A DNA stretch of 42,562 bases from a virus. The first letter of the stretch is position 1. Each line of letters opens with the position of its first letter. Both the position numbers and the translations under genes were made by a program. Location of the stretch: positions 1-42,562 of the IMG/VR virus record IMGVR_UViG_3300006749_000028; one strand, 5' to 3'. Under the pieces are notes generated by a model. It made no database searches, had not been told where the DNA came from, and worked only from the letters and a program-made list of their open reading frames with translations. Shown here piece by piece: positions 1-42,562 of the stretch.

Positions 1-17
1 CTTTAATAATTATTAAA

Positions 18-476
18 ATGAAATTCAAGAACTTAAGTTTTATCGACCACCCCGCCACAGATGGGGTAATTGCTCAAGTCATTGATGATTCGGGCAAAAA
101 AATATCTGTTGTTGCAGGCAAAGGTCTGTATAGCGATTCCAAACATGGACACCGAGAATCTGTTTCTCACCCTAACGATGCAATCTCTTTTGAGGTACTG
201 GTAGAAGGAGAGGATGATATAAGACCATATCAAAGCAGAGAAGACATTGATAAAATATTGTTAGAACATTTTAATGAAATCGAAGAAACAATGACTCCAA
301 AAGAATTGGCATGTAATTTACTTGAAGATATGGAGATGGTTTCAGCAGATGTTTCAAGGCAATACTATGCCGATGGTATTATAGGGTTTTCAAGTTTAAA
401 AGAAGATGAGCAAATTGAAGTATTGGAAACTCTGTTTAGACAAAAAACAATTACTTGGAAATTTAATTTTATTTAA
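18..476 (+). CDS. Hypothetical acidic early protein
   Basis: This 152-residue ORF starts at the first ATG of the window after an A/T-rich leader with no Shine-Dalgarno sequence. I do not recognise the family. The product is rich in Asp and Glu and looks soluble, with no signal peptide or membrane segment. The C-terminal half, from about residue 75, reads as amphipathic helices. It is the only gene before a strong terminator at 595-623, so it is probably transcribed separately from the replication operon. If the molecule is circular, its start lies about 30 bases from the divergent start at 42549. Confidence 0.7.
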   Translation: MKFKNLSFIDHPATDGVIAQVIDDSGKKISVVAGKGLYSDSKHGHRESVSHPNDAISFEVLVEGEDDIRPYQSREDIDKILLEHFNEIEETMTPKELACNLLEDMEMVSADVSRQYYADGIIGFSSLKEDEQIEVLETLFRQKTITWKFNFI

Positions 477-506
477 AAAACACTATGCCTAATCATGTAT
501 AAGGAT

Positions 507-530
507 GCAAGAATATTAATTTTTTCTTGC
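507..530. other. Small hairpin in the 477-679 intergenic gap
   Basis: A perfect 7-bp inverted repeat (GCAAGAA with TTCTTGC) encloses a 10-base A/T loop. No T-tract follows on the plus strand, so it is at best a weak terminator or an mRNA 3' end structure. The rest of the 203-base gap between the first gene and the 55-residue gene holds only the terminator at 595-623 and the promoter at 621-655. Confidence 0.35.
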
Positions 531-594
531 TCATATTAAAATCATTTACTATATTGTATTTTCATAAATAAGAATTTGGTTATATTAATTGGGG

Positions 595-623
595 AAAGGG
601 TAGCAGAAATGTTACCCTTTTTT
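595..623 (+). terminator. Rho-independent terminator after the first gene
   Basis: AAAGGGTAGC pairs with GTTACCCTTT as a 10-bp stem with one G-U pair, around the loop AGAAAT. The stem runs directly into a run of T. It separates the 152-residue gene from the replication operon. Its T-tract merges into the TTTG that serves as the -33 element of the next promoter. Confidence 0.85.
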
Positions 624-655
624 GTTGCTTATGTGTAAAACATGTGCTATCTTTG
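621..655 (+). promoter_or_regulatory. Bacteroidota-type promoter of the replication operon
   Basis: TTTG at 621-624 and TATCTTTG at 648-655 fit the Bacteroidota consensus (TTG or TTTG, a spacer of about 17-23, then TAnnTTTG) with a 23-base spacer. Transcription should start just after 655, leaving a leader of about 20 bases to the ATG at 680. This is the only promoter in the window where both elements are clear. It probably drives the genes from 680 to about 3283. Confidence 0.7.
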
Positions 656-679
656 TTATAACATAAAACATAAAACAAC

Positions 680-847
680 ATGGAAAATTATTTCGAGGAG
701 GAACTCTTCAATCGTTTTGCAGATGATGACTACCAAGCAAAACAATTTCTAATTCAAACACAACGCAAGTATGAACGCAAGCCCAACCCAAGGGATGTGT
801 TTTACATTGAATTTCACAACAACTTAAATAAAATATTTGGACTATGA
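680..847 (+). CDS. Small hypothetical protein, first gene of the replication operon
   Basis: This 55-codon ORF begins MENYFEEEL and ends NKIFGL. Its stop overlaps the ATG of the next gene in an ATGA arrangement at 844-847, which is typical of translationally coupled phage genes. It follows the best promoter in the window. The product is highly charged, with an acidic N-terminus and a basic middle around residues 29-35. I do not recognise a family. Support comes from the coupling, the codon use and the promoter placement rather than from homology. Confidence 0.6.
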   Translation: MENYFEEELFNRFADDDYQAKQFLIQTQRKYERKPNPRDVFYIEFHNNLNKIFGL

Positions 848-1164
848 ACAATCATATCTTTAGGTCATACGTTGATAATATTACTCAACAGTATGGCATA
901 ACAGAACAACAAATGTTTTCTGATGGCAAAAGCCAAAAGGATGTAGAACCAAGACATCTATTTTTTTACCTATGCAGTTTAAAAGAGATATCCATTGTAA
1001 ACATTCAAACGTTCTTGGGTGAGCGGGGGTATTCTTATCATCATGTAACTATTCGCAAGGGCATGGATAAAATAAACAGAAGGGTAGAAGAACATCCAGA
1101 GTATGATGTTCTGATTTCTAAAATGCAAAAGATTAGTTCTAAAGCATTACGCAACAATGTATAG
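844..1164 (+). CDS. DnaA domain IV-like DNA-binding protein
   Basis: This 106-residue protein resembles the C-terminal DNA-binding domain of bacterial DnaA without the AAA+ part. After a short lead, residues 35-45 (VEPRHLFFYLC) match the helix that in DnaA reads R-x-x-A-M-Y-L. A helix-turn-helix follows. HHVTIRKGMDKI at 66-77 occupies the place of the DnaA signature loop and helix (DHSTVLHAxRKI). DnaA domain IV recognises 9-base DnaA boxes, so an origin-binding or transcription role is inferred. It is coupled to the gene before by ATGA and overlaps the next by 8 bases. A second protein of the same type lies at 8245-8778. The assignment comes from motif pattern only. Confidence 0.6.
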   Translation: MNNHIFRSYVDNITQQYGITEQQMFSDGKSQKDVEPRHLFFYLCSLKEISIVNIQTFLGERGYSYHHVTIRKGMDKINRRVEEHPEYDVLISKMQKISSKALRNNV

Positions 1165-1552
1165 TGAACTCAATGAAGTTTTTGATACTGCATTGGATGA
1201 TAGAAAAACCATCAATGCCAACTCTGATGGTTATCAAGCAAGAATTGGTTACGGAGTAAAGATTGTAAATGAAAATGGATTAATAACAATTTACAATACC
1301 GCCAATGGTGGTGACTTTTACAGAGAGATAACCGATGATGAGTATGAAGTTTTTCTTCAAGAGGGTTGGTACTCGGGAGTATATAAAATGTGTATTGAAA
1401 AGTACAAAGGTATATTGCAAGAGATAGAAAGGAAGACAAAGAGAGAAATCAACGGCAGAAAAAACCTGAAATATTTAGACTACCTAAAAAAACACAAAGA
1501 AACAATTCTAAAAAAGTATTACAACATAACACAAAAACTTAGTAAATTATGA
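1157..1552 (+). CDS. Hypothetical protein with helical C-terminus
   Basis: A 131-residue protein that overlaps the genes on both sides by a few bases (its stop overlaps the ATG at 1549), so it belongs to the operon. Residues 25-75 look like a small beta-rich domain (VKIVNENGLITIYN, then REITDDEYEVF). From about residue 80 it is a Lys/Glu-rich helix, possibly a coiled coil. I do not recognise a characterised family. Its place between a DNA-binding protein and a recombination pair suggests DNA metabolism, which is inference only. Confidence 0.7.
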   Translation: MYSELNEVFDTALDDRKTINANSDGYQARIGYGVKIVNENGLITIYNTANGGDFYREITDDEYEVFLQEGWYSGVYKMCIEKYKGILQEIERKTKREINGRKNLKYLDYLKKHKETILKKYYNITQKLSKL

Positions 1553-2109
1553 AACAACTTAAAACTATTAAGGTACAAGGAGGCAAAGAATATGTCGAGG
1601 TACACACACGAGTGAACTATTTTCGTTCAGCAGAAGAATATAAAGGATGGGGAGAGAACTGCGATATCATAGAGAAGACAGACAAGTCTATACTGATGAA
1701 AGCAACCATAACAAATCCCGATGGACATGTTGTTGCAACTGGACATGCATATGAAGATAAAGATGCAAGCAGGATAAACCAACGTAACCATGTGGAGAAC
1801 TGCGAAACATCAGCAGTAGGCAGAGCCTTGGGATTCTTGGGTATTGGTAGCGATGGAAGGATAGCATCTTATGAAGAGGTAATTAATGCCAAGGCCAACG
1901 AGAAGGCAGATGAGATAAAAGAAGTTTTAACTGATGAGCCCAAGGAATATTATCTTGAATTAGATGGCGATGACTGGGATAGGGTGATGTCGTTTATGGC
2001 AAACAACAAAGACAAGATGTCTTTGGAACAAATGATTGAGAAGTTTAAAACCAAGTACAATGTAACTAAGGTAAAGAAGGAACTCAAGAAGGCATATGAA
2101 GGAAAGTAA
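1549..2109 (+). CDS. Putative single-strand annealing protein (ERF/Rad52-like)
   Basis: This 186-residue protein has an N-terminal domain (about residues 1-120) with the conserved stretch HVENCETSAVGRALGFLGIG. That pattern is seen in phage single-strand annealing or ssDNA-binding recombination proteins of the ERF/Rad52-like group. A charged helical C-terminal tail follows. Such proteins pair complementary single strands exposed by a partner exonuclease. A RecE/Cas4-like nuclease does follow at 2271, making a plausible two-component phage recombinase. The family call is by motif resemblance, and an unrelated ssDNA-binding role is possible. Confidence 0.5.
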   Translation: MKQLKTIKVQGGKEYVEVHTRVNYFRSAEEYKGWGENCDIIEKTDKSILMKATITNPDGHVVATGHAYEDKDASRINQRNHVENCETSAVGRALGFLGIGSDGRIASYEEVINAKANEKADEIKEVLTDEPKEYYLELDGDDWDRVMSFMANNKDKMSLEQMIEKFKTKYNVTKVKKELKKAYEGK

Positions 2110-2308
2110 ACTCATAGAACTAAAAAACAAAGTAGACTCTTTTACCCGAGTGATGCAGGAGGTAATAAACAAGATTGCATTGCTTGAGAACCTGCTGATA
2201 AATTTAACTACAGTAATCAAGAGATTAAAAGAGTATGAAGAAATAGCTAACCAACTTAAAAAAGAATCAGATGACCGACAAAAAAATGATAGAAAAGCTA
2301 AAGGATGA
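2096..2308 (+). CDS. Small coiled-coil hypothetical protein
   Basis: A 70-residue protein, almost entirely a charged helix with heptad-like hydrophobics from about residue 10 to 60, ending in a basic tail. It overlaps the gene before by 14 bases and the exonuclease gene after by 38 bases. It might be an accessory factor of the recombination pair, but I recognise no family. Confidence 0.55.
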   Translation: MKESKLIELKNKVDSFTRVMQEVINKIALLENLLINLTTVIKRLKEYEEIANQLKKESDDRQKNDRKAKG

Positions 2309-3035
2309 CAAACATTATTACGGTGACTTTGGAAAACAATTCTTATCCAACTCCGATATACAAAGTTTAGTTTTAGAACCAAGGCAGTTTCACGCACCAC
2401 AACCAGACAACAAAAACTTTGTTGATGGTAGATACTTTCATCAACTAATATTAGAACCCGAGAAGGTTAAAGATTTTAAGGTTTGTGATGTCTCCTCCAG
2501 GAACTCCAAAGCATACAAAGAATTTTTAAGTGACAACAACTTAGAGTATGCTATGTTAGAAAAAGAGACACACAACTTGAAGAACATGAGGGATTATATG
2601 TTAGGTAATCTACAATTCTCTGACTTTATTAACGACCCATCAGCAGAGTATGAAGTACCCGCAACAAAAGAAATAATGGGGGTAGGATGGAAAGGTAAGG
2701 CAGACATTGTAACTGACACACATGTGTTTGATATCAAAACATCTTCAGATGTATTTAAATTTCCAAGGAACTCTATCAACTATTTTTACCACACACAAGC
2801 ATACATATACCAAGAACTATTTCAAAAGCCAATGGTATTTCTTGTTGTAGGTAAAACCAAGAAGAGAGACAGAAACAATAAAGACTACTATGACCTTGGT
2901 GTGTTTCCTATGAAGGAAGAGACTATGGGATTAGCAGAACAAACAATCGAGAGGGCAGTCAATACATATAAGATGTGGTTTGCTCCCGATTCTAAAGAGA
3001 ATATAGAGAACTATATTATAAACACCCGTATTTAA
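2271..3035 (+). CDS. PD-(D/E)XK exonuclease, RecE/Cas4-like
   Basis: This 254-residue protein has the core of the RecB/RecE/Cas4-type nuclease fold. H57 lies in an early helix (FVDGRYFHQLI), D145 in GKADIV, and D154-x-K156 in FDIKTS. A helix with Q176 and Y178 (YHTQAYIY) forms the motif downstream of the active site. Spacing and length fit phage exonucleases that resect double-stranded ends for an annealing protein, here the neighbour at 1549. Translation may start at ATG 2271 or at an in-frame ATG at 2286; both overlap the preceding gene. Cellular role is cytoplasmic recombination or replication of concatemers, by family knowledge. Confidence 0.75.
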   Translation: MTDKKMIEKLKDDKHYYGDFGKQFLSNSDIQSLVLEPRQFHAPQPDNKNFVDGRYFHQLILEPEKVKDFKVCDVSSRNSKAYKEFLSDNNLEYAMLEKETHNLKNMRDYMLGNLQFSDFINDPSAEYEVPATKEIMGVGWKGKADIVTDTHVFDIKTSSDVFKFPRNSINYFYHTQAYIYQELFQKPMVFLVVGKTKKRDRNNKDYYDLGVFPMKEETMGLAEQTIERAVNTYKMWFAPDSKENIENYIINTRI

Positions 3036-3052
3036 TTTTAAAACTATTTATT

Positions 3053-3283
3053 ATGTCACAAGACACCACAGAAGAAATCCAATTTATTGATGGCTTAATT
3101 GCTAAGAGAAGTGAAAACGCTAAAGATTTTCAAATTGTAAAACTATCATTTAAGGTAGATGAATTTCAAAAGTTCCTAACCAAAAATAATAAAAAGGGTT
3201 GGATGAACGTAGATGTAAAGAGAAGTAAGGCAGGAAAAATATATGCCAGTCTTGACACTTGGGAACCTAATAGTGATTTTTAA
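3053..3283 (+). CDS. Small conserved phage protein of unknown function
   Basis: This 76-residue protein is the last gene before a terminator. It is hydrophilic with alternating strand-like segments (FQIVKLSFKVDEF, WMNVDVKRS, IYASLDTW). Its position directly after the exonuclease and before the candidate origin suggests a DNA-metabolism accessory role. I know of no characterised function. The A/T-rich leader without Shine-Dalgarno matches the other starts. Confidence 0.65.
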   Translation: MSQDTTEEIQFIDGLIAKRSENAKDFQIVKLSFKVDEFQKFLTKNNKKGWMNVDVKRSKAGKIYASLDTWEPNSDF

Positions 3284-3304
3284 TATTACTGTTAGCCTTT
3301 ATAG

Positions 3305-3331
3305 AGGGGAGATAGCTACTCCCCTTTTTTT
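3305..3331 (+). terminator. Rho-independent terminator
   Basis: AGGGGAG (3305-3311) pairs perfectly with CTCCCCT (3319-3325) around a 7-base loop and is followed by seven T. It closes the transcription unit that begins at 680. It also insulates the candidate origin and primase gene. Confidence 0.85.
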
Positions 3332-3362
3332 GGCTCAAGTGCTATGACAAAGTTTAATTCTC

Positions 3363-3478
3363 CTTATATATATATATTTTTTTTTATTTATTATTTATTA
3401 TTCTTTATATATAAGAAATAAAACGACATTTCCGACAAGCCCCCATAAACACTAAAAATTATCGACATAAAATCGACA
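3363..3478. other. Candidate replication origin: AT-rich tract plus DnaA-box-like CGACA repeats
   Basis: About 60 bases of almost pure A/T (3364-3423) are followed by four same-orientation CGACA motifs, at 3424, 3433, 3463 and 3474. One lies in TTATCGACA (3459-3467), one base away from the DnaA box TTATCCACA. The last ends at the primase start codon. A further near-box, TTATCCACC, lies at 3698-3706 inside the primase gene. An unwinding tract beside DnaA-like sites, next to the primase-helicase and in a phage with two DnaA-IV-like proteins, suggests an origin. The DNA pattern is direct; the function is inferred. No complete promoter was recognised in the 194-base gap 3284-3477. Confidence 0.45.
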
Positions 3479-5886
3479 TGAAACAAGAGATAACTATATT
3501 TAAAAACATCAAAGATACAGACACACCTTTCTATAGGAAGGTGCATACTGTTTTAGAACGAATAAAAGATGGTAAGTCAAAAGACCTTATAACATCTATC
3601 CGAAGGGAAAAAAATAAGTCAGAAAGAAACGAACTCAAAAAGCAATTACCATCTATTTGTTTTAGTGGTAAGTTTTCAAAGAGAGAAGACAATAGCCTTA
3701 TCCACCATAGTGGACTAATATGTCTTGACTTTGATGGGTATTCAAAGCAGAAGGATTTAATTCAGCATAAAGAGAAGTTAATAAAAGACAAGTATACGTT
3801 TTGTGTATTTATATCTCCATCTGGAAATGGTCTTAAGGTGTTAGTAAGAATACCTAACGATGCAGAGAACCATGTAAACTACTTTAAATCCTTAGAAAAC
3901 TATTACAACTCCCCAAACTTTGACAAGACATGTAAAAACATAAGCAGGGTTTGTTATGAATCGTTTGACCCATTAATTTACATAAACGAGAACTCTGAAC
4001 TGTGGGAAAAAATTGAAGAGCCTGAGTACAGAGAGGTAACTGTAAACATGGACTCGCCAACCATACCGATTACAGATGAGAACAAGGTTGTAGATATATT
4101 AGTTAAGTGGTGGACAAAGAAATACCCAATGATTGAAGGTCAAAGAAACCACAACGTATACGTTTTAGCAATGGCATTTAATGACTATGGGATAAATAAA
4201 AACTTGGCACAGTACATATGCAATCAGTATGCGACCCGTGATTTTAATGAGCAAGAGATTACAACTACAATTAATTCTGCATATCAAAACACATCAAAGT
4301 TTAATACAAAGTATTACGAAGATGAGGAGGCAATAACTGAAATAAAGCAACAACTCAAAAGAGGAGTAAACAAGTCTGAAATAAGGAAACAACTACTTAG
4401 GGCAGACTTAGAAGAGGATGTTATTGATTCAGTTTTGCATAGGGCTGATGAAGAAAACAAGCAGATGAAGTTTTGGACTAAGACTGATAAGGGTGTAGTT
4501 AAAATAATTCATTTGATATTTAAAGAGTTTTTAGAAGACAATGGATTCTACAAGTATTGTCCAGAGGGTGGTAAGAATTATGTTTTTGTTAGGGTTACTA
4601 ATAACCTTATAGACCACACAAGCGAGAAAGAAATAAAAGATTTTATTCTGGAGCATCTTAAACCACAAGAGGATTTGTCTGTATACAATTACTTTGCAGA
4701 CCAGACTCGCTTTTTTAGAGAAGAGTTTCTTACTCTTTTAGGTACTATAGACATTCTATTTATAGAAGACACCAAAGACACAAGCTATCTATACTATAAC
4801 AATTGTGCGGTCAGGATTACCAAGGATGAGGTAAAGACAATTGATTATCTTGACCTTGGAGGCTATGTATGGAAAGACCATGTGATTGACAGAAACTTTA
4901 ATAATGAAGAACTTAAAGAATGTGACTATAGCAAGTTTATAACAAACATATGCAATAAAGAAGAGACTCGTGTTGTATCAATGCGTTCTACTATAGGATT
5001 TTTAATGCATGGTCATAAGAATTTGTCTTACTGCCCTGCCGTTATACTTAATGATGAAGTAATATCAGACAATCCAGAGGGCGGAACTGGGAAAGGCATA
5101 TTCAAAAACGCATTGTCAAAGATGAAGAAGTTGGTTACAATTGATGGAAAGTCTTTTACGTTTGAAAAGTCATTTGCATATCAATTAGTTTCAGCCGACA
5201 CACAGATACTTTGTTTTGATGATGTAAAAAAATATTTTGATTTTGAGAGATTGTTTAGTGTAGTTACAGAGGGGTTGACATTGGAAAAGAAAAATAAAGA
5301 TGCCATACTCATTCCATTCTCTAAGTCTCCTAAGATAGTTATAACAACAAACTATGCCCTAAAGGGTGCAGGAAACTCTTTTGCAAGAAGGAAGTGGGAG
5401 TTAGAATTATTTCAACATTATAAAAAGAACTGGACACCACAAGATGAATTTGGAAAGCTTTTGTTTGATGATTGGGATACAGAGGAGTGGAGTAGCTTTG
5501 ACAACTACATGATATCTTGCCTACAACTATTCTTAAAAAATGGGTTGGTTGAAAGCACATTCGTAAACCTAAAGATAAGACAGCTATCTGCGGAAACTTG
5601 CCATGATTTTATAGAGTGGTGTGGACTAATTAAAGACACGATGCCCAATAGACATCTAAATGAAGAGGGCAAGATATATAAACAAGAACTGTATCAAGAC
5701 TTTGTGCATGAGTACCCAGACTACTCTCCAAGGGCACGATACTCTGTATCTCGGACAAGGTTTTACAAGTGGCTCGTGGCATATTGTTTGTTTAAACACA
5801 ACGTTGCTCCAGAGGAAGGCAGAGATAGTGCAGGAAGGTGGATGATTATAAAAAAACCCGTTGTTCAGGAAGAGATGCCCTTTTGA
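3478..5886 (+). CDS. Primase-helicase: BT4734/VirE-N domain, PriCT-like domain, SF3/D5-like helicase
   Basis: This 802-residue protein combines priming and unwinding. The N-terminal domain (about 1-175) is of the BT4734/VirE_N archaeo-eukaryotic primase type: LICLDFDG (80-87) gives the acidic pair, then SPSGNGLK (113-120) and YESFDP (160-164). Residues about 195-275 resemble the primase C-terminal linker domain. The helicase has Walker A NPEGGTGKG (532-540), Walker B ILCFDDV (577-583), sensor VITTN (621-625) and arginines 637-638. It should load at the origin and synthesise primers. Since no DNA polymerase is seen in the window, the primase domain might also extend DNA, which is speculative. 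It starts just after the candidate origin. Confidence 0.85.
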   Translation: MKQEITIFKNIKDTDTPFYRKVHTVLERIKDGKSKDLITSIRREKNKSERNELKKQLPSICFSGKFSKREDNSLIHHSGLICLDFDGYSKQKDLIQHKEKLIKDKYTFCVFISPSGNGLKVLVRIPNDAENHVNYFKSLENYYNSPNFDKTCKNISRVCYESFDPLIYINENSELWEKIEEPEYREVTVNMDSPTIPITDENKVVDILVKWWTKKYPMIEGQRNHNVYVLAMAFNDYGINKNLAQYICNQYATRDFNEQEITTTINSAYQNTSKFNTKYYEDEEAITEIKQQLKRGVNKSEIRKQLLRADLEEDVIDSVLHRADEENKQMKFWTKTDKGVVKIIHLIFKEFLEDNGFYKYCPEGGKNYVFVRVTNNLIDHTSEKEIKDFILEHLKPQEDLSVYNYFADQTRFFREEFLTLLGTIDILFIEDTKDTSYLYYNNCAVRITKDEVKTIDYLDLGGYVWKDHVIDRNFNNEELKECDYSKFITNICNKEETRVVSMRSTIGFLMHGHKNLSYCPAVILNDEVISDNPEGGTGKGIFKNALSKMKKLVTIDGKSFTFEKSFAYQLVSADTQILCFDDVKKYFDFERLFSVVTEGLTLEKKNKDAILIPFSKSPKIVITTNYALKGAGNSFARRKWELELFQHYKKNWTPQDEFGKLLFDDWDTEEWSSFDNYMISCLQLFLKNGLVESTFVNLKIRQLSAETCHDFIEWCGLIKDTMPNRHLNEEGKIYKQELYQDFVHEYPDYSPRARYSVSRTRFYKWLVAYCLFKHNVAPEEGRDSAGRWMIIKKPVVQEEMPF

Positions 5887-5906
5887 AATTAAATGTAAAC
5901 ATAGCT

Positions 5907-6146
5907 ATGGAAAACTCCTATAAGTTAATTATAGACAAACTTTCATTGGATGATTTCAATGATATAAAGGGTTGTTATTTTATTCATAACCCATATAAAG
6001 AAGTGCAGGAATCTACCCTTAATGAAATGCTACTGTATTACAAACAAAAAAAAGAGTGGAACAAGTGCTTGAAAATTTATACACTTAAATCTAAATTAAA
6101 ATTCAGTTATGAACTACAGAGATTATCAAACAAGTATTATAAATAA
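5907..6146 (+). CDS. Hypothetical protein
   Basis: A 79-residue ORF from ATG 5907. The frame is open upstream to a GTG at 5838, but that would overlap the primase gene, so the ATG 21 bases after the primase stop is preferred. It overlaps the following helicase gene by 38 bases. Sequence features are a conserved-looking CYFIHNP stretch and a C-terminal helix rich in Lys, Tyr and Leu. I do not recognise a family. Confidence 0.6.
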   Translation: MENSYKLIIDKLSLDDFNDIKGCYFIHNPYKEVQESTLNEMLLYYKQKKEWNKCLKIYTLKSKLKFSYELQRLSNKYYK

Positions 6147-7344
6147 ATCGGTAAAGGTTCTAAAACAACATGGGTTTGTTTATCTCGCTATGGAGGTGAG
6201 GACTGGCAAAACGCTTACTGCTTTAGGTATTGCCAGTATGTTCTCAGAGACAAAAAATGTTTTGTTTGTTACCAAAAAGAAAGCGATTTCATCTATTGAC
6301 AGAGACTACGCTTTATTAAAACCATCTTACTACCTCCACACCATAAACTATGAGAGTCTCCATAAGATACCCTCAGAACTTAAATGGGACTTTATAGTGC
6401 TCGATGAGGCCCATTCCTTAGGGGCTTTTCCAAAGCCCAGTAAAAGGGCTAAGGAGGCAAGGATGCTTATAATTAAAAACAAAGCAAAGGTTATTCTTTT
6501 GTCTGGGACACCAACACCTGAGTCATACAGTCAAATGTATCATCAAGTTTATGGCATACCTAACAACCCTTTTAAGGAGTATAAGTCTTTCTATAGGTTT
6601 TGTGATAAGTATGTGGATGTTAAAGAACGAATTATAAATTCGCTTCGCATTAGGGACTACTCCAGAGGAAGCAAAGCTATTTTAGACGAGATGAAACCAT
6701 ACACTATTAGCTACTCTCAAAAGGAAGCGGGCTTTAAAGTGGATACTGTTGAGAAGGTTTTATATGTAAAGATGTTGAAGCAAACATATAGAATTGCTAC
6801 AGACCTTAAAAGCAATCTTGTTGTAGAGGGAAAAGATGAAGTCATCCTTGCGGATACTCCAGTAAAGCTTATGAGTAAACTGCACCAAATATATTCTGGA
6901 ACAGTAAAATTTGAAGGCGGTGGGTCTGCGGTAATAGATTCTTCAAAAGCGGAGTTTATACGCCACCAATTTAAAAATATGAAGGTGGGTATATTTTATA
7001 AGTTTAAAGAGGAACTGAAGGCTTTAAAATCGATTTACGGGGATGACCTAACTACTGAGTTAAGTGTCTTTGACGACACAAATAAAAGTATTGCTCTTCA
7101 GATAGTAAGTGGAAGAGAAGGCATAAGTTTAAAAAAAGCGGAGTGCTTGATATATTATAACATAGACTTTAGTGCTACAAGTTACTGGCAAAGCAGAGAT
7201 AGAATGACAACAAAAGATTCTGTTCAAAACGATGTGTACTGGATATTCTCTAAAGGAGGAATAGAAGACAAGATTTATCAGGCGGTCACCAAAAAGAAAG
7301 ACTATACCCTATCTCATTTTAAAAAAGATTTATTAAGCCTATAG
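6109..7344 (+). CDS. SNF2-like superfamily 2 helicase
   Basis: A 411-residue ATPase with the motifs of superfamily 2 in order: Walker A EVRTGKT (29-35), DEAH (99-102), SGTP (132-135), a motif V-like GREGIS (335-340) and motif VI QSRDRM (361-366). The compact size and the SNF2-like C-terminal lobe fit phage helicases found beside primase genes and VRR-type nucleases. It probably remodels forks or branched DNA, with the two nucleases just downstream as partners. The helicase call is strong; the specific substrate is not visible. The next gene starts one base after its stop. Confidence 0.85.
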   Translation: MNYRDYQTSIINKSVKVLKQHGFVYLAMEVRTGKTLTALGIASMFSETKNVLFVTKKKAISSIDRDYALLKPSYYLHTINYESLHKIPSELKWDFIVLDEAHSLGAFPKPSKRAKEARMLIIKNKAKVILLSGTPTPESYSQMYHQVYGIPNNPFKEYKSFYRFCDKYVDVKERIINSLRIRDYSRGSKAILDEMKPYTISYSQKEAGFKVDTVEKVLYVKMLKQTYRIATDLKSNLVVEGKDEVILADTPVKLMSKLHQIYSGTVKFEGGGSAVIDSSKAEFIRHQFKNMKVGIFYKFKEELKALKSIYGDDLTTELSVFDDTNKSIALQIVSGREGISLKKAECLIYYNIDFSATSYWQSRDRMTTKDSVQNDVYWIFSKGGIEDKIYQAVTKKKDYTLSHFKKDLLSL

Positions 7345-7725
7345 ATGGGACTGATAAAAAATAGTAATAAAGCCAAGCAAGGGATAGACTTTACTGGAGT
7401 CAAGTGGGGGAAGATTCACCCATCTGATGTTGATTTTGTCTTAGAGTTTAACAATAAAGTATTAATTTTAGGGGAGGTAAAATATAAGGGTAGCGAACTT
7501 ACAATTGGCCAGAGGCTTATGTTGGAGAGAATGGCCGACAGTTGGCACACGGGTTTTAGTTTTGTTATCTTTGTACACCATACTCATGACGATGATGCCA
7601 CAGACATCCCGCTTGAAAAATGCGAGGTTTATAAGATATACCACAATAAGGAGTGGCATTTGTTAGGAGGTATGCTGATAGATAAAATTAATCAAATAAG
7701 AAAAGTGTTTAACCTTGATGACTGA
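7345..7725 (+). CDS. Small PD-(D/E)XK nuclease-like protein
   Basis: A 126-residue protein with a minimal nuclease signature: D28-x-D30 in HPSDVDFVLEF, then E44-x-K46 in LILGEVKYKG, then Q56-R57 in a following helix (IGQRLMLERM). That order of Asp, E-x-K and helix is the PD-(D/E)XK core. The product would be a cytoplasmic metal-dependent DNase, perhaps acting on structures opened by the upstream helicase. It abuts the helicase gene exactly and overlaps the VRR-NUC gene by 8 bases, suggesting coupled expression. No specific family was identified. Confidence 0.65.
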   Translation: MGLIKNSNKAKQGIDFTGVKWGKIHPSDVDFVLEFNNKVLILGEVKYKGSELTIGQRLMLERMADSWHTGFSFVIFVHHTHDDDATDIPLEKCEVYKIYHNKEWHLLGGMLIDKINQIRKVFNLDD

Positions 7726-7957
7726 ACAACAAATTCAATCAAAAAGAATAAAAGAATTAGAGGCTGAAGGCTACTATGTAATCAAATTAATTAAAACAAA
7801 CAAGAATGGTATTCCAGATTTAATAGCGATACCGCCCAACTCGAATGTAATATTTAGTGAGATTAAAACAAAAAAAGGAAAAACATCTGCTCTTCAAGAG
7901 TACAGATTAAAAGAATTAAAAAACTATGGATTTATTACAGAAGTATTCAGCGGCTGA
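7718..7957 (+). CDS. VRR-NUC domain nuclease
   Basis: A 79-residue stand-alone VRR-NUC domain: GIPDL with D34, FSEIKTKKG with E48 and K50, and Q60 in the next helix (SALQEYRLKEL). Family members are PD-(D/E)XK nucleases. Short phage versions usually lie next to SNF2-type helicases and are thought to act on branched DNA, possibly as Holliday-junction resolvases. The ATG at 7718 is preferred over an in-frame TTG at 7715. It overlaps the preceding stop and the following start. Confidence 0.8.
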   Translation: MTEQQIQSKRIKELEAEGYYVIKLIKTNKNGIPDLIAIPPNSNVIFSEIKTKKGKTSALQEYRLKELKNYGFITEVFSG

Positions 7958-8276
7958 GTTATTTTATGAACTTGATGAAACATTTATATTACAGATAGAG
8001 GAATCATTAACTGTTAAACAGTCGGGGGATTTAATTGTAGACATAGAACTGTTAGTGCCTAAACTAAAAAAAGTAAATCACAAGTCACAACTGTTGGCGG
8101 GTGTTCTACAGACTGGAGGCGAACCAATATACTATGCTATGCGATTTATTAACGAAGAAAGGCATAGCCCATATTTTTTTCAATTCATAATTATAGATAC
8201 AGACCAATACTTAGATTTTTACAACCAAAAAAAAGCAATAAAAAATGGATATAGAGACGATAAAAGAAACTCTTAA
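7926..8276 (+). CDS. Hypothetical protein
   Basis: A 116-residue ORF overlapping both neighbours by 32 bases. The sequence is mixed alpha/beta (ELFYELDETFILQIEE, then DLIVDIELLVPKLKK) with no recognised motif, membrane segment or signal. The overlaps and uniform codon use support a real gene. Function unknown. Confidence 0.65.
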   Translation: MDLLQKYSAAELFYELDETFILQIEESLTVKQSGDLIVDIELLVPKLKKVNHKSQLLAGVLQTGGEPIYYAMRFINEERHSPYFFQFIIIDTDQYLDFYNQKKAIKNGYRDDKRNS

Positions 8277-8778
8277 GAAACACGACAACTATGATGTTGA
8301 TGACCCCGCTAAGAACGTATCTCAAAAGAGGGAGAATGTAGAAAGCAGGGCTATGTATTTTAAAATGTGTCAGGATTTAAACAAAATGGGGCTTACTGCT
8401 ATAGGAAACAGTCTGTCACCTAAAAAAAACCACGCTACCGTTCTTCATGGTATAAGAACAATGAATGACTTGATAAAAATTGATAAGAGTTATAGGGCAA
8501 GATATAAAGGACTAAAGGCTCGAGCAAAATATTATGAAGAAGTTAGGGAAAGAAATAAGGCTCTTTCTTTCGATGAATGTCTTGTAAGAATAGCAGACTT
8601 GGAGACTAAATTAAAAGAAATAGAAAAAGAAAATATTTATTTTATTGATGAAATATCTGACCTTAGAGACCACAATGAAATCGTAAAGGAACATTTGATG
8701 TATCACAAAAGAAAGCTACACGCAAAAGGGTTTGACACTAACCACATGAAAGTATTTAATCTGCTAAAGTACAGATAG
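8245..8778 (+). CDS. DnaA domain IV-like protein with coiled-coil tail
   Basis: This 177-residue protein has a DnaA-type DNA-binding domain at about 25-90. ESRAMYFKMCQDL (33-45) matches the R-x-x-A-M-Y-L helix. TAIGNSLSPKKNHATVLHGI (51-70) matches the DnaA signature, where the H-[AS]-T-V-[LI]-H core contacts DnaA boxes. From about 95 on it is a charged coiled coil, suggesting oligomerisation. There is no AAA+ ATPase domain. It could bind the box-like sites near 3459, compete with host DnaA, or regulate transcription. Similarity to DnaA domain IV is clear by eye; the role is inferred. The smaller relative at 844 shares only the domain type. Confidence 0.75.
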   Translation: MDIETIKETLKKHDNYDVDDPAKNVSQKRENVESRAMYFKMCQDLNKMGLTAIGNSLSPKKNHATVLHGIRTMNDLIKIDKSYRARYKGLKARAKYYEEVRERNKALSFDECLVRIADLETKLKEIEKENIYFIDEISDLRDHNEIVKEHLMYHKRKLHAKGFDTNHMKVFNLLKYR

Positions 8779-8815
8779 TTAAAAAAAATTCATAACTTAG
8801 TATAAAATATCTTAT

Positions 8816-9046
8816 ATGAATTATGAAATAAAAGATATAGATAAGATAGTTGAGTACAAGACTTGGACTACTAAAAAAAAGGTTGACACGCTGTTAGAGA
8901 TTGATGCCAACATGTACTGTGAGTTAGGACTTGGAACTCCTCTGTCTGAAAAAAGAAATGTAAAAAGAAACTCTAGAAAAATCTATTACGCCATCAAAAA
9001 AGTAGATTCTGAACTAGGCTCTAAGCTTATTCAGTCTATGGATTAA
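8816..9046 (+). CDS. Small conserved phage protein, unknown function
   Basis: A 76-residue, mostly helical, basic protein (LLEIDANMYCELG, then RKIYYAIKKVDSELG). A TAACTTAG sequence at 8793-8800 is one base off TAnnTTTG, so a weak promoter is possible in the 37-base gap upstream. I recall similar small proteins in Bacteroidota phages but no function. Confidence 0.6.
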   Translation: MNYEIKDIDKIVEYKTWTTKKKVDTLLEIDANMYCELGLGTPLSEKRNVKRNSRKIYYAIKKVDSELGSKLIQSMD

Positions 9047-9052
9047 AAGGCG

Positions 9053-9235
9053 ATGAAAAAAATAGAAACAAAGAGAGTTCAGAATGTCAACTTTATTATG
9101 GATGACATTCACAATTCTTCCAACAACATCTATGAACACCTCATAGATGAGGACTACCCCTCGCTAAAAACTGAATTAGTTACTCTAATAAAAAAGCTGA
9201 AAGGCTTAATAGACTCCCTTCAGGATGAGTTATAA
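9053..9235 (+). CDS. Small helical hypothetical protein
   Basis: A 60-residue helical protein with a Leu/Lys heptad pattern in its second half (LVTLIKKLKGLIDSL). It lies 6 bases after the gene before and overlaps the phosphoesterase start by 11 bases. No family recognised. Confidence 0.55.
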   Translation: MKKIETKRVQNVNFIMDDIHNSSNNIYEHLIDEDYPSLKTELVTLIKKLKGLIDSLQDEL

Positions 9236-9944
9236 CACAATAAGGCCAAGACTACACGGAAACAAGCGGGTAGCCTTTGAACATCTTACGTCTGTAGAAA
9301 AAAGAATACTGGTAGTCGGAGACCTCCACGAACCTTTCACGCACCCAGACTATTTAGATTTTTGCAAAGAAGTATACGCTAAGTACCTGCTAAACAAGGT
9401 CGTATTCATAGGAGACATCATAGACTCACACGGGTGGAGCTATCACGAGTCAGACCCCGATGGCCTTTCTCCTGGTGATGAGCTTAGCCTGGCAGTTAAG
9501 AAGGTGTCTAAGTGGTATAAAGCCTTTCCAAAGGCTGATGTGTGCATTGGAAACCACGACAGACTTGCTTCTAGAAAAATATTTTCAGCTGGAGTTCCGC
9601 GTAAATGGCTTCGTTCATACAACGAAATACTACACACCCCTAAGTGGAAGTGGGTAGAGAACGTTACTTATGATGACGTTCTATACGAACATGGGGAAGG
9701 AGGACAAGCACAAGCCAAGGCAAAGAACAACATGATGTCAAGTGTTTGTGGACACACGCATACCGAAGCTTACGTCAAGTGGTTTGTAGGTAAACGATTC
9801 AGATGCTTTGCAATGCAAACGGGTTGCGGGATAGACATCAAGTCCTATGCTGCGGCATATGCTAAAAACTTTAAGCGTCAGGCTCTCGGCTGCGGTGTAG
9901 TTTTAGGAGGCCACACGGCTTTTAATTGTATGATGGATTTATAA
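9225..9944 (+). CDS. Calcineurin-like metallophosphoesterase
   Basis: A 239-residue protein with all five metallophosphoesterase motifs: GDLHEP (32-37, D33 and H35), GDIID (63-67, D64), GNHD (109-112), H156 in YEHGEGG, and GHTH (176-179). These bind a dinuclear metal centre. Substrate cannot be read from sequence; phage relatives are proposed phosphodiesterases acting on nucleic acid or nucleotides. It is coupled to the next gene by a TAATG overlap. GC content seems slightly higher here than in the flanking small genes, which may mean separate acquisition. Confidence 0.85.
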   Translation: MSYNTIRPRLHGNKRVAFEHLTSVEKRILVVGDLHEPFTHPDYLDFCKEVYAKYLLNKVVFIGDIIDSHGWSYHESDPDGLSPGDELSLAVKKVSKWYKAFPKADVCIGNHDRLASRKIFSAGVPRKWLRSYNEILHTPKWKWVENVTYDDVLYEHGEGGQAQAKAKNNMMSSVCGHTHTEAYVKWFVGKRFRCFAMQTGCGIDIKSYAAAYAKNFKRQALGCGVVLGGHTAFNCMMDL

Positions 9945-10330
9945 TGTTTGAAGTAGACCAACAACTATCTAAAAAAAAATGGGCAATAGACCTATACCTT
10001 AATATAAGAGGAGGGGACAAGTACCAGAAGCTTGGGCACAACGATGTGGACTTTAGAATAAAAGATGAAAACAATAATGTTATATCTTACGCTCAAGTAA
10101 AAGTGATAGATGCTCCACTAGCCAAGGCTTACCCGCTTACTGTGGATGCAAGAAAGATAATTAAACTCAGAGACAAAAGGATAAAAGGTGTTATTATCTG
10201 GGCGTGTATAGATGGTATTATATATTCAACCATAGAGGAGCTCCAAGGAGAGACGATGTGGGACAAGTCAAGCGGTGAGTTAATCTTGTCTTTTAACAAC
10301 AAAAAAAAGTTTAAATATGTTAGAGCCTAA
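9944..10330 (+). CDS. Nuclease-fold protein with D-QxK active site (Mrr/DUF4365-like)
   Basis: A 128-residue protein starting at ATG 9944; an upstream in-frame TTG at 9926 is rejected. HNDVDFRI (32-39) supplies D34/D36, and YAQVKV (49-54) supplies Q51-x-K53. This is the PD-QxK variant of the PD-(D/E)XK core known from Mrr and DUF4365-type proteins. The DVDF arrangement resembles the nuclease at 7345, so the two may be distant relatives. It could act on DNA or be a degenerate nuclease. The role is not deducible. Confidence 0.6.
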   Translation: MFEVDQQLSKKKWAIDLYLNIRGGDKYQKLGHNDVDFRIKDENNNVISYAQVKVIDAPLAKAYPLTVDARKIIKLRDKRIKGVIIWACIDGIIYSTIEELQGETMWDKSSGELILSFNNKKKFKYVRA

Positions 10331-10400
10331 ACAAGAGTTTGGATTAGTCATTTTACTCAACGCTATAATTATCTATATGATATTTAAAATTCTACTTTAG
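10317..10400 (+). CDS. Tiny single-membrane-segment peptide (candidate)
   Basis: A 27-codon ORF that starts within the end of the preceding gene and overlaps the last 17 bases of the opposite-strand giant gene. Residues 8-27 (FGLVILLNAIIIYMIFKILL) form one strongly hydrophobic segment after a short charged head. It could be a small membrane peptide, possibly lysis-related, since no holin is otherwise seen. It may equally be a chance ORF in an AT-rich convergent junction. No clear terminator hairpin was seen in this junction. Confidence 0.25.
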   Translation: MLEPKQEFGLVILLNAIIIYMIFKILL

Positions 10401-13400
10401 CTGGAGGTTTTGGCTTAGGTCTCTTTCTAGGTCTATATGATGGACTAATACCTAAAATGTCATACATATCATCTTCTTCAAAAGTGCCCAGACCTTCAAA
10501 AGAATTATACAAACCAACGAGCGGGTCTATTTGAGCTCCTAAACCTAATTCAATTAATGGTATTACCGCTCCTTCAGTACCCATAGTTTCGTAATATCTG
10601 TTAACCTTTCTGTAGATTGATATATAAGGATTGACAACTGATGAAGCATAGCTTCCGCTTTTACCTTCTGCTCGCGCTACTGTCATTTCTATAGCAGCGC
10701 CAATAAGCGGAACTTGATAAATCAAATTTGTGCCTAATAAAGCTTTATTTACCTCCCTTAAAACTTCTTCTTTGTCTTCATCATCACCTTTTATTAGCCT
10801 TGCTATGTTAGCCGTTAAAACAAACAGTGCATTGGCCACTCCTAAGTTTAAAGCAAATGCCCTTAAATCTTTTGCTTTTATTTGTTTAAATTTTCCTGCT
10901 TTGGCTTTACTCATAATTGCAGCTTGCGCAGTAGCCACCTTGTTTATTTGCAAAAAAAGCATGCTTCCAAACATTGTAAATGCTCTAGTCAACTCACTTT
11001 TACTTCGTTGCAGAGGAATTTTATCAGTGTTTCTCCGACTTTGTTGAGTTGCATTATAATCGTTAAAAGCTTTTAACGCTTCTTTTTTACTCATTCCATT
11101 CTTAATATTCCTGTTGTAATTCACCATGTATCCCATCACACCAATAACATCTCCTAAGACAGTAGGAGCTGCTCCAGCAGTTCTAAAGGCTTGCCTAGCT
11201 TTACTTATTAAAGGAGAGTTTTTAGGGAGCGCCTTAAATTTAGCTCCAGATTCCAGTCCAACCACATCTCCACCTAGTCCTTTTTCTATTCTGTCCCTAA
11301 AGGTTGCAGATAATTTATAAGCTTTTTTTATTTGTTTGGGGAGCGTGGCTATAACTACTGATAAATCTGCTAAGAACCCTAGTGTGTCTAAAACAGGGGT
11401 ACTCTTACCTGGTCTAAACTGATAACTTTCAAAAGCATTTATAATCGAAGTTGATTGTTTTGCTATTTGAATTATTCTAAAAGCTAAAGCAAAAGATGTA
11501 AACTTTGTGTTTAATGTGCTAATAATTGTATTAGGCAGATTAGAATATCCATAATCAGGATTTACCTCAGAATTAATAGACTGCTTTATTAGGTTTCTAA
11601 GGCCTGTAACGTATAGAAGAGATTGAACTCCTTCTGCATTAAATATAGCATTCATCTGCCTTACTCCTTTAGCATAAGATTTAAATCTCTCCATAGAGTC
11701 AATGTGGTTATCTAAAACAGAAGTAAAAGTATCTCCTTCGTCAATAACAATTTTACTTTTTAAATCTGTTCTTGCTTTTAAAGCAGGAGAGTTTTCAGCT
11801 CCAAATATTGCATTAAAATTTCCGTCTTCAAGAAGCTTGCTATCAAGCTTAGTTTTTGTCCTGGTAGGAAAATAATTTTCTACATAACCTAAGTTTGTAA
11901 AATTTAAACTTGAATAAACATCGTTTACAGACTCAAAATAAGATGTGCTTAAATATTCAACTACATTGTCCGCAAAAGCGGTGAGCTCTGGCCCAAGTTC
12001 TTTCTCAATTCTACTTAGTATTTTATCATTGAATCCATCTGTTTTTAACTTTTCTCTTTGAACTTCATTTAAACTTAAAGCATAAATTCTTAATAGTTCG
12101 TTAGCGGAAAAAGTTCTTTTTCTTTTCTTGCCATTTACTGTTCTTTCTATTACAATTGGCCCTTTAAAAAGCTTTTGAGATATTTCTTTATATCCCTTTG
12201 TTATCCCTGGTATGCTGTTCGCTAAATCGTTCAGTATGTCTTTTTGATTGTATATACCTCTCAAAGCGTTTTCACTCATCACATTTAATTTATCATAAAT
12301 GTTTTTGTAAAAAAAGCCTTCTTGATACTTATCTAATATTTTAGTAAAGCTTCCTAAATGAGCAAGTTTTTTTCTAAAGTAATCATATATAACAGGAACT
12401 CCTGTAAACTGATAATACTTACTCATTTTTTTAATACCATCCCATATTTTGAATTTTCTAAACGACTCCCAGACCTCTCTTTGTTCTTCGTCTATAACTT
12501 CTTTTTCTTTAAAAACTACATTACCCTTACTATCTGTTTCTGTAAGAACTTCGTAGTTAGAAGCTATCGCTTCGTTTGCTTCATCTTTTATTTTGCGGTT
12601 TTCTTCTGCAACTAATTGCCTGTCCTGTTTTAGTTTTGAAATAGATTCTTTTGTTATTTGATTTAAAGTTTCTTCTAGTTGCTGAACATCTTCCAAAGAC
12701 ATATTATTTATTTCAGAAAATAAAGTTCTTGCTAATATGTAATCTATTAATTTCGTTTCTTGTGTTGATAATTTTTCTCCCCTAGTATCTTTTTCAAACA
12801 CACTATCTATCACTTGGTCAGTGTTTTGCTCGGAATCTATTTTATTAGCGAGTTCATCTATAGAAGTTTGCACTTGCTCTGATTGGTTTAGCAAAATGTT
12901 TTCTAATATTTCTACTGCACTTTTGAAAAACTGCTGACCTCTAGCATCCAAGCTTTGTGCTTTAGCTTTTCTAGATATGCCAATTTTTGCTTTGGATTTC
13001 TTTTTTGCAGAGCTTAATATTCTTTTAATCAAAGACTTTTTAAGCTGAACTCTTTTATTTTCTACATTTTTTAAAACTTTTTCTACTGCTGCGGGCAAAT
13101 CTTGTTTAGACTTTACGTTTGAAATTATAGCAATATTTCTGGCTATGTCGGCTTGAGTATATGTTTTAGAAACTGGTAATGCGTTTCTAACAAAATTTTT
13201 AAGCTCTATTTGAGCTTTTCTCAAATCGGCTATTCCCTTTTTATACCCTCTAACTGCTTTTTTTATTTTACTTATTTCTAGTTGCACAGTTCTATTTGCC
13301 CTTGTGCCTACAGATTTATCTAAAGCTAAAACTAATTCATTTTGAGATATTTCAGGAAGTGCTTGATACACTTCAGTCTCTTGCAATAATTCTAAAGCCT

Positions 13401-16400
13401 TTGCCCTTATCTCTGCTTTAGTTCTTTCTGCCTGCTCGGTAAATGTTTTAAGTTTGGATTGGAGGTCTCTAAACAGCCTTAAACCCTCCTGAGCGCCCTG
13501 CTCTATGTTTTGAAAAGCAGAAGGCAGCACCTCATCTTTAAGAAGCGCCAGCTCCATAGCTGGGTTTATATCTGCTGCTTTGAATCCTCTGCCTCTAAGA
13601 ACTGAACGTATAGCTGGGTCACTAAAGCCCTGGTCTCTACCAGCTCTTATGATTCCCTCTATAGTCAGGTCTTGTCCTTCTATTGTGGATATTCTTCTTC
13701 TTGTAGTAGTTTTAAAAGGATTAAACTTTCTGCCGTTACGAGTTAAAAACAATCCCCCACCTCTTCCAAACTGGTCAGTCCTTGCTCTTTGAGCTCCTAA
13801 ACCAAAGGGCTCTACGGCCCTGCGTAGCTGTGAGAGGTTAGCTGTCTTTGGAATAAAACCTTGGTTATCCATATTGTACTGCTGAGCCACCTGTTCTACT
13901 GTTGCTTTTCTTTGTCTGGGGGCTGCTGCTATTTCTCTTATACCTGAACCATAAGGCGCTACAGCTTGAGATTTTTCAGAAGCTTCAAGTTCTCTCTGAT
14001 ATTTATCTACCATTTCTTGTGGCATAATATCAAAAGCATTGACTTTTTGGTCTGGAACTCCTATTACTTCACCTAAAACTTCGTTTGCGTATGTGGAGTG
14101 TTGAGACCCCTCTCGAGCTGACGTTGGTTTTATAACCACCATAACGTCATTAAGACCAAAGTTATTGTCTTTATAAAAGCTATCTCTAAGTTCGTTTACA
14201 TCTACAAAGCCATTTAAAGACTTAACCAACTTATGGAACTCAGTGTTTGTCGTGCCTTCTTGCTGTCTTAATGCTATTAAAAACTTTTTTCTGTCAGGAC
14301 TGTTACGCATTTCTTCCCAGCTATTAAACTTATTTAGCGCATCTTTAATTCCTTTAGTTGGGTTTGTTGCTAAAGCATCAGCTTTGAATGTAACATAGTC
14401 TCCAAGTCTTTGAGTAAATACGTCATATACTTTTTTATTAAAAAGTAAACTCTTTTGTGGCGAACCGCTTATTATAAATAAATAATCAGCTGCATCTATG
14501 TTTTTTTGTATTGACTTTACTGACTTAGAGCTTGCCCATACAGCATCACCTTCAAATGCAAAACTTGGGCCTGCATCTAACTGCACTCCTTCAAACTCTC
14601 CTAGACCTAATTGGTCAGCAACCCAAAACCAAACCTTCTCTCCTTTAGAATTTATATCCTTAATTAAGGAAAGGATGTCTACGCTTTTATCTGGGGTTAC
14701 CAAAGACAGCCCATAGGAATCGTTAAATTTAACTTTCCTTTGCCTGGGCTTAGGAACTCTTATTTCTGTAGGATTGCCTACGGGATTTGTTCCGTCTTCT
14801 AATATCTCTACGTCTACTTCTGTTATTTCTTCACCCGTCTTTACTTTCTTGGCTAAAGTCTGAAGTAATTTTACTACATCATTTTCAGTATCAAATGTGC
14901 TCTCAATATCTCTTAAGCCAAATGTCCTGGCTAATGTTTTTAAGAATGTTTTAATAAAGTTTTGTGCAGGCTGTTCTAAGTTTGTATAATCTCTTGCCAA
15001 TATACCCATGAGCTCAGCAAGGCGCTCTTCATTTTGAACTTCAGGAGCTCCTTCATACTTAGCAACAAAAGTTTCTATCTCCTGCTGTACTTTTTGAGGC
15101 ACATTACCATTTAGTTTTTTAACCAATAAGTCTGCTTGTCGAGTGGCTTTCTTGTCCGTCTTAACTTTGTTCAGAAACACCGCATGGAATACCTCGTGTG
15201 GTACAGTTATTTCTGTGGCCTTGGATAAGTCTACATGGATTACGTTTTCAGATGGATTAAACTCTGCTTCAGCCTGAGCGTCACTAACAAAGTTTTGAAA
15301 GTCTGTAGCAGAATCGTGTAGCACTATTCTTGTATTAGGCAAAAGCTTAGAAATAGCTTTAGCCGCTGTAGTTGCTATAGCAAGGACAGATTGTTCCCTG
15401 TTAAGCTGCTCAGTAGTCTTGTCTGCCACCGCCTCTTTTCTGTTAACCACTAAATTGTCTGATACTTTTTCTGTGGTCTCCTCTATAGTTTCACCAAAGA
15501 ACCTATCAATTGTTCCAGGGACTTCTTCTGTTACCTGCTCCTCTGTAACCTGCTCCTCTGTAACCTGTTCTGTCTCTGGTATACCTAATGAATACTGAAG
15601 GTCTTTGACTTCTTCTACGTCAACTTCTTCCTCAATCTCTGTGTCCTCAACACTGAGTTCTTCTTCTTGGGGTGTAGTCTCTCGGGCAGCTTCGTCGGTG
15701 ACGATGTCTCCTGCTCCCACATCTTCGCCATCTCTGGTTTGTTCCTGTACATCCACCTTCTCTGAGCTTGGCTCCTGAACGGCATCTTTATCTGTTTTAA
15801 TTGTTTCTGTAATAGTGCTTAAGCTTGCTAGCTGTTTATTAATCTCATCAACTCTTGTTTGTTGCGCTACAGTTAAACTAGGGTCGCCAACCTCCTCTAT
15901 AGTTTGAGTAAGAGCTTCTTTTTCTTTTAATAAATTAGTTGCTTGTATTTTTTGCTCTTGATTAAGATTGGTTTTATCTAATTTTACTTGAATTATTGAG
16001 GTGTCAAAAAAGTTTTTTTGTATTCTATCCGCCTCTTGTTGTGTCATTTCCCCTTTGTTAACTCTTCTTTTAAGCTCATTAACAAGAATAGCATCTGCTC
16101 GTTTAGTTTTAGCTAAATCAAACTGAACCTCATTGGTTTCAGCTGATTCAAAAACCTGAACTATATCAGAAAATTCAGTGGGTTTTATTTTTTTGTTAAT
16201 CTTTGTTTTTGCTAAAGCTTCGTTTACAGCTTTAAATCCTTTTGCAGCATTAATAGGTGCTCCATAAACACCACCCGACCCAAACCCTATTAGAAATGCA
16301 TCTGCGACACCCTCAAATACAGGCCTGCCGTCTATTAAGTTTTGTGTTATTTGTGTAGCAACCTCTTCTATACCCTCTCCTAGGGAGGATGTAACAGCGC

Positions 16401-40995: not shown

Positions 40996-41277
40996 TTATT
41001 TAGACCTTCTTTCTGCAAATCCTTGCTTTGTTTCTACCTTAGAACTTCCTTGTTTTGAAAGTTGTAATGTCTCCTCTTCTCCGTCAATTCTGTTTAATAT
41101 ATCAAACGCGTCAAATATAGCTAGCTTTTTTGTTGCTGCTGCATTCTTTAGCCTATCAGCCGCAAGCTCATCTTCAGGGTCAGGTTTTATAATATCCTCT
41201 TTGGCCACTTTAATAAGTTGCTCTACTGCCCTTCGGCCAGCGTGTATAATTTTTTCTTTTAACAAATCTGATTTCAT
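40996..41277 (-). CDS. Candidate terminase small subunit
   Basis: A 93-residue, charged helical protein whose stop abuts the large terminase start. A conserved-looking core, DELAADRLKNAAATKKLAIF, is followed by a short basic C-terminal tail. Small size, helical nature and location directly before terL suggest the DNA-recognition subunit of the packaging motor. No helix-turn-helix is obvious, so the call is mostly positional. Its ATG overlaps the stop of the oxygenase gene before it. Confidence 0.45.
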   Translation of the reverse strand: MKSDLLKEKIIHAGRRAVEQLIKVAKEDIIKPDPEDELAADRLKNAAATKKLAIFDAFDILNRIDGEEETLQLSKQGSSKVETKQGFAERRSK

Positions 41278-41762
41278 GCTTTGGTTTTCATAAAAATTAC
41301 TTGCACCAATCTAGAATATTCCCCTTCTCCAAAGTTTTCAAATATATTTCTTGAGTGAGGAATTTTAGCATCAAACATAACCATTCTATTATAACCTGCA
41401 TACAAAGTACACATCGGCACATAATTATCTAGAAATTTATTATATTTATATAGAGTTGTCCCGTCTTCTAGAGGGTGATAGGAATTTAAATACAACAACA
41501 CTATTTTGTCTCCCATCATTTCATCTGTATGTATAAAATTAGGTTCTTCTTGATAAAGAGGAGACTGTCTCATAAAATTAAAGACCACTTCTTCTTCTGG
41601 AAAAAGTTCTTCAATTTTATATTGAAATTCATCCATCCCCCGTTTTTGTATTCCCTTAAATGTTACATCTCCATATAGAACATCTTCAAAAGTTCCTTTT
41701 AATGCATCAACAACATACTTATTAGGATTATCTAAAAAGTCATCAAAAATCATATTTATCAT
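41274..41762 (-). CDS. 2OG-Fe(II) oxygenase-like protein (DUF6445-type)
   Basis: A 162-residue protein with a minimal double-stranded beta-helix oxygenase signature: H78-x-D80 in FIHTDE, distal H136 in IPHSR, and R151 as candidate 2OG ligand in EYSRLVQV. The segment GDKIVLLYLN and DGTTLYKYN between them matches small oxygenases of the DUF6445 type. Substrate unknown. It overlaps both the GroES-like gene (upstream) and the candidate small terminase gene (downstream) by 4 bases, so it is expressed with packaging genes. With the double-domain enzyme at 23046, the phage carries three oxygenase domains. Confidence 0.7.
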   Translation of the reverse strand: MINMIFDDFLDNPNKYVVDALKGTFEDVLYGDVTFKGIQKRGMDEFQYKIEELFPEEEVVFNFMRQSPLYQEEPNFIHTDEMMGDKIVLLYLNSYHPLEDGTTLYKYNKFLDNYVPMCTLYAGYNRMVMFDAKIPHSRNIFENFGEGEYSRLVQVIFMKTKA

Positions 41763-42322: not shown

Positions 42323-42324
42323 TA

Positions 42325-42549: not shown

Positions 42550-42562
42550 TATTTCTTCATTA

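Follow-up and report, generated by a model that had tools for sequence, protein, structure and literature searches.

A candidate replication origin of phased iterons and an A/T tract, and its usual second copy, in a family of mostly uncultivated phages

The alpha protein of the satellite phage P4 is an SF3 helicase which binds iterons through its C-terminal domain, and two iteron-bearing cis sites, ori and crr, are present in that system. To our knowledge, the replication origin has been established for hardly any uncultivated phage. A passage in PMC9611036, citing Ziegelin 1993, describes P4 alpha as uniting origin recognition, helicase and primase in one protein. Two similar origins, oriL and oriR, are found about 13 kb apart in the Bacillus phage SPP1, one of them inside gene 38; both consist of direct repeats and an AT-rich unwinding element, and both are bound by gp38 (PMC6316719).

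The DNA analysed here, called the window throughout, is a virus record of 42,562 bases (IMGVR_UViG_3300006749_000028), a fragment whose complete relatives measure about 60 kb. It carries an element which is likely, judged from its sequence, to be one of two origin sites of a widespread phage family, namely a PICI/P4-type arrangement of iterons and an A/T tract that would be read by the adjacent primase-helicase. A literature search, confined to openly available papers, brought up no account of this element in these phages.

Layout of the element and its neighbouring genes

Directly 5' of the element lies a small gene for a putatively SSB-like protein (positions 3053–3283, plus strand). Relatives of this reading frame occur in 144 of the 155 genomes whose upstream sequence extends to 1 kb or more, and they mostly end in an acidic, SSB-like [D/E][L/V/I]PF tail; the window copy ends in NSDF, and searches of Pfam and PHROG gave no SSB match for its product. 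A terminator-like hairpin followed by a T run (3303–3327, plus strand) forms the end of this upstream transcription unit. The A/T tract, proposed as the DNA unwinding element, comes next at 3363–3423, is 95% A/T and has no strand assigned. Within it, 3364–3402 form an uninterrupted run of 39 A/T bases, the next longest in the window having 22. The tract, which begins with CTATATATAT, recurs in relatives and at the second site described below.

Four CGACA motifs, all on the plus strand, follow the tract at 3424, 3433, 3463 and 3474. Given one such motif, the probability of three further same-strand copies within 55 bp is about 1e-6, and this is the only 60-bp stretch in the whole window with four. 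The motifs lie within four boxes on the plus strand: box 1 (ACGACAT, 3423–3429), box 2 (CCGACAA, 3432–3438) 9 bp past box 1, box 3 (TCGACAT, 3462–3468) 30 bp past box 2, and box 4 (TCGACAT, 3473–3479) 11 bp past box 3, with a strandless spacer (3439–3461) between the two pairs. The tract of about 60 bases, the four motifs after it and their place between a terminator and the primase-helicase start had all been described in the initial annotation of the window, and these descriptions hold, the hairpin standing before the cluster, the reading frame beginning at 3478 and the motifs being clustered beyond chance. The window copy has no clear inverted box left of the A/T tract, and the motif AATCAnnnAGTTA is not present in its spacer. 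Rfam gave no match in positions 3000–4000 of the window, and megablast of positions 1–12000 against phage records gave none. One match to the pattern of paired boxes at 24158 of the window is located inside a late gene and was taken as chance. The longest reading frame of the window, with 2400 residues, is on the minus strand at 10384–17586.

The primase-helicase gene (3478–5886, plus strand) starts inside box 4, which overlaps its start codon, and encodes 802 residues with an AEP-type BT4734-like_N domain and an SF3-like DUF5906 helicase; the protein is the proposed initiator. Its C-terminal domain, residues 696–802 (5563–5883, plus strand), is predicted to be a winged helix with a mean pLDDT of 86 and, on the basis of this model and of covariation, is proposed to recognise the boxes. 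The full-length model was unusable (pLDDT 45) and the domain was modelled alone. A fold search with it returned generic winged helices only, with a best Z of about 6 and with RFX1 (1dp7) among them at 5.6; nothing reached Z 8 and P4 alpha was not among the matches listed, nor was a sequence match to P4 alpha found. The primase-helicase ends in EEMPF (5860–5886), like the C-terminal tip of SSB, an ending which some relatives share and many do not.

Two phage proteins resembling domain IV of DnaA, also noted in the initial annotation, are real. D1 (844–1164, plus strand) matches Bac_DnaA_C with an E value of 1.4e-6 and 28.7 bits and D2 (8245–8778, plus strand) with 8.7e-6 and 26.1 bits, both below the cut-off of 31.5 bits, and the corresponding proteins of the relative MW202828 score above the curated cut-off. 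D1 and D2 are paralogous and lie on either side of the primase-helicase gene.

The array in relatives and its second copy

Relatives of the primase-helicase are encoded by 556 IMG/VR stretches, from which 80 loci were fetched as a first set; three more scans brought the full set to 173 unique primases. Upstream of the gene in the first set (11.6 kb) TCGACA was found 115 times on the plus strand and 0 times on the minus strand, a 53-fold enrichment over the flanks. The box spacings are rigid, 9 followed by 30 or 41, then 11 and often 11 again, and the family consensus of the box is AAAT[C/T]GACAT. Conservation in relatives had been put forward as a check of the origin, and most of them indeed have the array ahead of the primase-helicase gene; in some the gene-proximal array is missing. 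Boxes on both sides of the tract hold for the family, with inverted boxes on the left and the array on the right: left of the tract TGTCGA occurs 32 times and TCGACA twice, and an inverted left box is present in 84 of 112 arrays, a forward one in 28. The spacer motif AATCAnnnAGTTA is shared by many relatives and second sites (e.g. L009, 5937–5978). More distant relatives (L373, L374 and L375, 44–47% identity) have upstream repeats of different sequence (TTGGACA; GTGTTG), and one of them (L374, about 46% identity) keeps the spacer motif and has 9-bp paired boxes of the sequence TTGGACA, suggestive of a wider co-diversification; the different repeats hint at further iteron codes. The cultured relatives Flavobacterium elemo and Maribacter Panino, which have a related N-terminal primase domain, carry no such array upstream.

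The initial annotation had called the element an origin with DnaA-box-like sites. The call of a candidate origin is supported because the element is conserved, duplicated, centred on an A/T tract and flanked by the SSB-like and primase-helicase genes; the DnaA boxes were not borne out. The boxes could be variant DnaA boxes bound by the two DnaA-domain-IV-like phage proteins or by host DnaA, as no locus of the first set is without a match to the DnaA_C-like family and TTATCGACA (3459) is, as had been annotated, one change from a DnaA box. Sites with one mismatch to TTATCCACA, however, number 12 in the window where chance predicts 13. The annotated TTATCCACC at 3698 exists, but its location is within the primase gene, and none of the 172 other relatives has it at that place. 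The first 81 sequences contain no TCCACA in their upstream regions, TTWTNCACA was found just 3 times in 173 upstream regions of 320 bp, the position weights of the family box reveal no preference for the 5' TT of the DnaA box, and the array does not show the TTATNCACA boxes of an oriC-like origin. With canonical boxes absent and TTATCCACA-like sites at chance level, the DnaA-box reading was rejected.

When the pattern of paired boxes was applied to whole records, unexpected extra matches appeared 8–13 kb upstream of the gene, and these turned out to be a second full copy with inverted boxes, AT tract, right-hand array and spacer motif. For the whole-record search a sequence-only model was trained on primase-proximal arrays alone and a match was defined by an E value of at most 1e-3. 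With this array model two copies were found in 32 of the 38 records of relatives that are 55 kb or longer, 6.5–14.1 kb apart (distances across record ends assume circular genomes), and in all 32 the copies have the same orientation as each other. A few records of at least 55 kb, mostly of a divergent clade, gave one match or none, perhaps as a consequence of training the model on other lineages. The window fragment holds one copy, and a second site would fall outside its 42.6 kb.

The second copy is flanked by minus-strand genes near the divergence of early and late genes and is therefore not an early-gene promoter in the same orientation. This bears on the possibility that the array is a transcription operator by which the primase-helicase or another regulator controls the early replication operon, with the AT tract as a promoter up-element. 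In the window the last box lies over the primase start codon, in relatives the arrays abut the gene, and iteron proteins often autoregulate, all of which would suit an operator. The second full copy, however, lies between minus-strand genes in an orientation that is fixed to the genome and not to a downstream gene, and both AT tract and inverted left boxes are preserved in it. Since an operator alone leaves this paired, genome-oriented layout unexplained, it is regarded as unlikely. Within the origin reading the gene-proximal copy may autoregulate primase-helicase expression as well, because its last box overlaps the start codon. Two copies in fixed orientation could also fit a binding site used in packaging, partition, recombination or the like, but the element sits between replication genes, has an AT tract of the melting type and has a box sequence which tracks the winged helix of the primase-helicase, so that such a role appears very improbable.

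Some relatives (L055 and L080, for example) have lost the gene-proximal copy and kept the second one. Because of this retention and of its location at the divergence, the second copy is probably the primary one of the two putative origins. GC skew had been suggested as a check of the origin, and in 11 of 11 genomes that are complete or nearly so the detrended GC skew does reach its minimum at a distance of 0.3–1.2 kb from the second copy; the minimum coincides with the early/late divergence, and because skew follows the direction of transcription here, its position at the second site is weak evidence. The second array of MW202828 (L093) adjoins phage GroES/GroEL genes (40671–42561) and is found just upstream of groEL, and in one other genome (L085) a tRNA-Arg(TCT) gene at 1663–1735 is located directly past the second array.

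Covariation of the boxes with the winged helix

The relatives split into a G type with TCGACA or TTGACA boxes and an A type with TCAACA or TTAACA boxes, the GC content of the two classes being close (36.6% vs 38.7%). An association scan was carried out over all alignment columns of the primase-helicase, the SSB-like protein, D1 and D2, with genomes collapsed at 86% identity. The six strongest columns were all in the C-terminal domain of the primase-helicase, among them lysine 735 (p 7e-13; codon at 5680–5682, plus strand), which best tracks G vs A in the box core, and arginine 787 (p 6e-8; codon at 5836–5838, plus strand), the second-best residue, located in the predicted wing. Lysine is present at position 735 in 97 of 101 G-type and in 1 of 37 A-type genomes (138 relatives). 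The single A-type genome with this lysine, L082, is G-type at its second site, and its proximal array is degraded. Two relatives lacking a proximal array have at their second site the boxes which residue 735 predicts, TCGACA in L055 with lysine 735 and TTAACA/TCAACA in L080 with leucine 735.

A tree-aware test used a tree built from residues 1–690 of the primase-helicase only. Likelihood ratios of dependent vs independent evolution were 53 for lysine 735, 37 for arginine 787, 30 for tyrosine 763, 29 for leucine 766 and 22 for tyrosine 734; they rank first to fifth among the 289 variable columns of the primase, for which the median is 5.0, and all five residues are within the winged helix. In the predicted model the top covarying residues occupy the start of the second helix, the recognition helix and the wing. 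The best value among 154 columns of the SSB-like protein, D1 and D2 was 13.5. When well-supported branches only were considered, 7 independent contrasts remained, of which 4 agreed, 0 opposed and 3 showed no difference (p 0.125). The box classes of the two sites of a genome correlate weakly (rho 0.39, p 0.06, n = 24, mostly G-type), and in the three clear A-type genomes the class agrees at both sites.

D2 as the reader of the boxes was a candidate tried and rejected: a first look linked a change from aspartate to histidine at the position of E. coli DnaA D433 with the A type, and in the larger set this position fell far below the primase winged helix in both the association scan and the tree-aware test. 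Histidine is found there in many A-type genomes, which would speak for the DnaA-like proteins, but the likelihood ratio is 9.6 as compared to 53 for lysine 735. Together with the upstream regions devoid of TCCACA and the box without the 5' TT, this makes recognition of the boxes by a DnaA-type protein quite improbable. Binding by the winged helix of the primase-helicase is the reading preferred here, and the covariation of lysine 735 and arginine 787 with the box sequence lends indirect support to iteron binding by the C-terminal domain.

Proposed mechanism and comparison with known systems

On either side of the tract, the TCGACAT iterons with their phasing of 9 and 11 bp would be bound by the C-terminal winged helix of the primase-helicase. 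Once bound, the SF3-like helicase would assemble on the A/T tract and melt it, the AEP-type primase domain of the same protein would prime synthesis and the SSB-like protein would cover the opened strands. The second copy would act as the main origin with the same box code. A broader proposal, put forward with evenly divided confidence, is that of a large, mostly uncultivated family of phages of about 60 kb in which a single fused primase-helicase would read a matched pair of origins about 10 kb apart. Winged helix and iterons would have co-diversified repeatedly, with lysine 735 and arginine 787 as marks of a G-reading code and their loss as the mark of an A-reading one, and sister lineages would carry mutually incompatible origins.

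The hosts are probably Bacteroidota, as indicated by several metagenome bins assigned to Bacteroidota and by remote relatives among cultured Flavobacterium phages. Contigs of the family were also found in bins labelled Aliivibrio and Pacearchaeota (L362, L364, L367, L371 and L372) and are probably misbinned. From the letters of the DNA alone it has become possible to propose a site, its usual second site, a probable initiator and the residues setting its specificity. Both initiator–origin co-evolution and dual-origin use within one phage thus become directly testable, and a small primase-helicase/iteron replicon is on offer which may work in Bacteroidota.

A primase and SF3 helicase as putative initiator next to the origin, characteristic of PICI and P4-type replicons, is found here as BT4734-like_N plus DUF5906 in one reading frame. 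The Pri-Rep-ori replicons of PICIs (SaPI, EcCICFT073; PMC6092414) belong to satellites, whereas here the element is part of the phages' own genomes of about 60 kb, usually has a second copy, and has different iterons in a fixed phasing of 9 and 11 bp. The differences to P4 alpha are the AEP-type BT4734-like primase domain, an AT tract of its own in each copy and the distance of about 10 kb between the copies. As in SPP1, two copies of the same repeat and AT-rich element are present per genome, here in 32 of the 38 records of at least 55 kb; SPP1 employs gp38, a separate loader and a DnaB-type helicase, in contrast to the fused AEP/SF3 primase-helicase found here. Short directional boxes beside an AT-rich unwinding element are reminiscent of the DnaA boxes of bacterial oriC, but the sequence of the boxes is different and covaries with the primase-helicase and not with the DnaA-like proteins. 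The element is thus best read as combining PICI/P4-type anatomy, SPP1-type duplication and an iteron code of its own in phages of about 60 kb.
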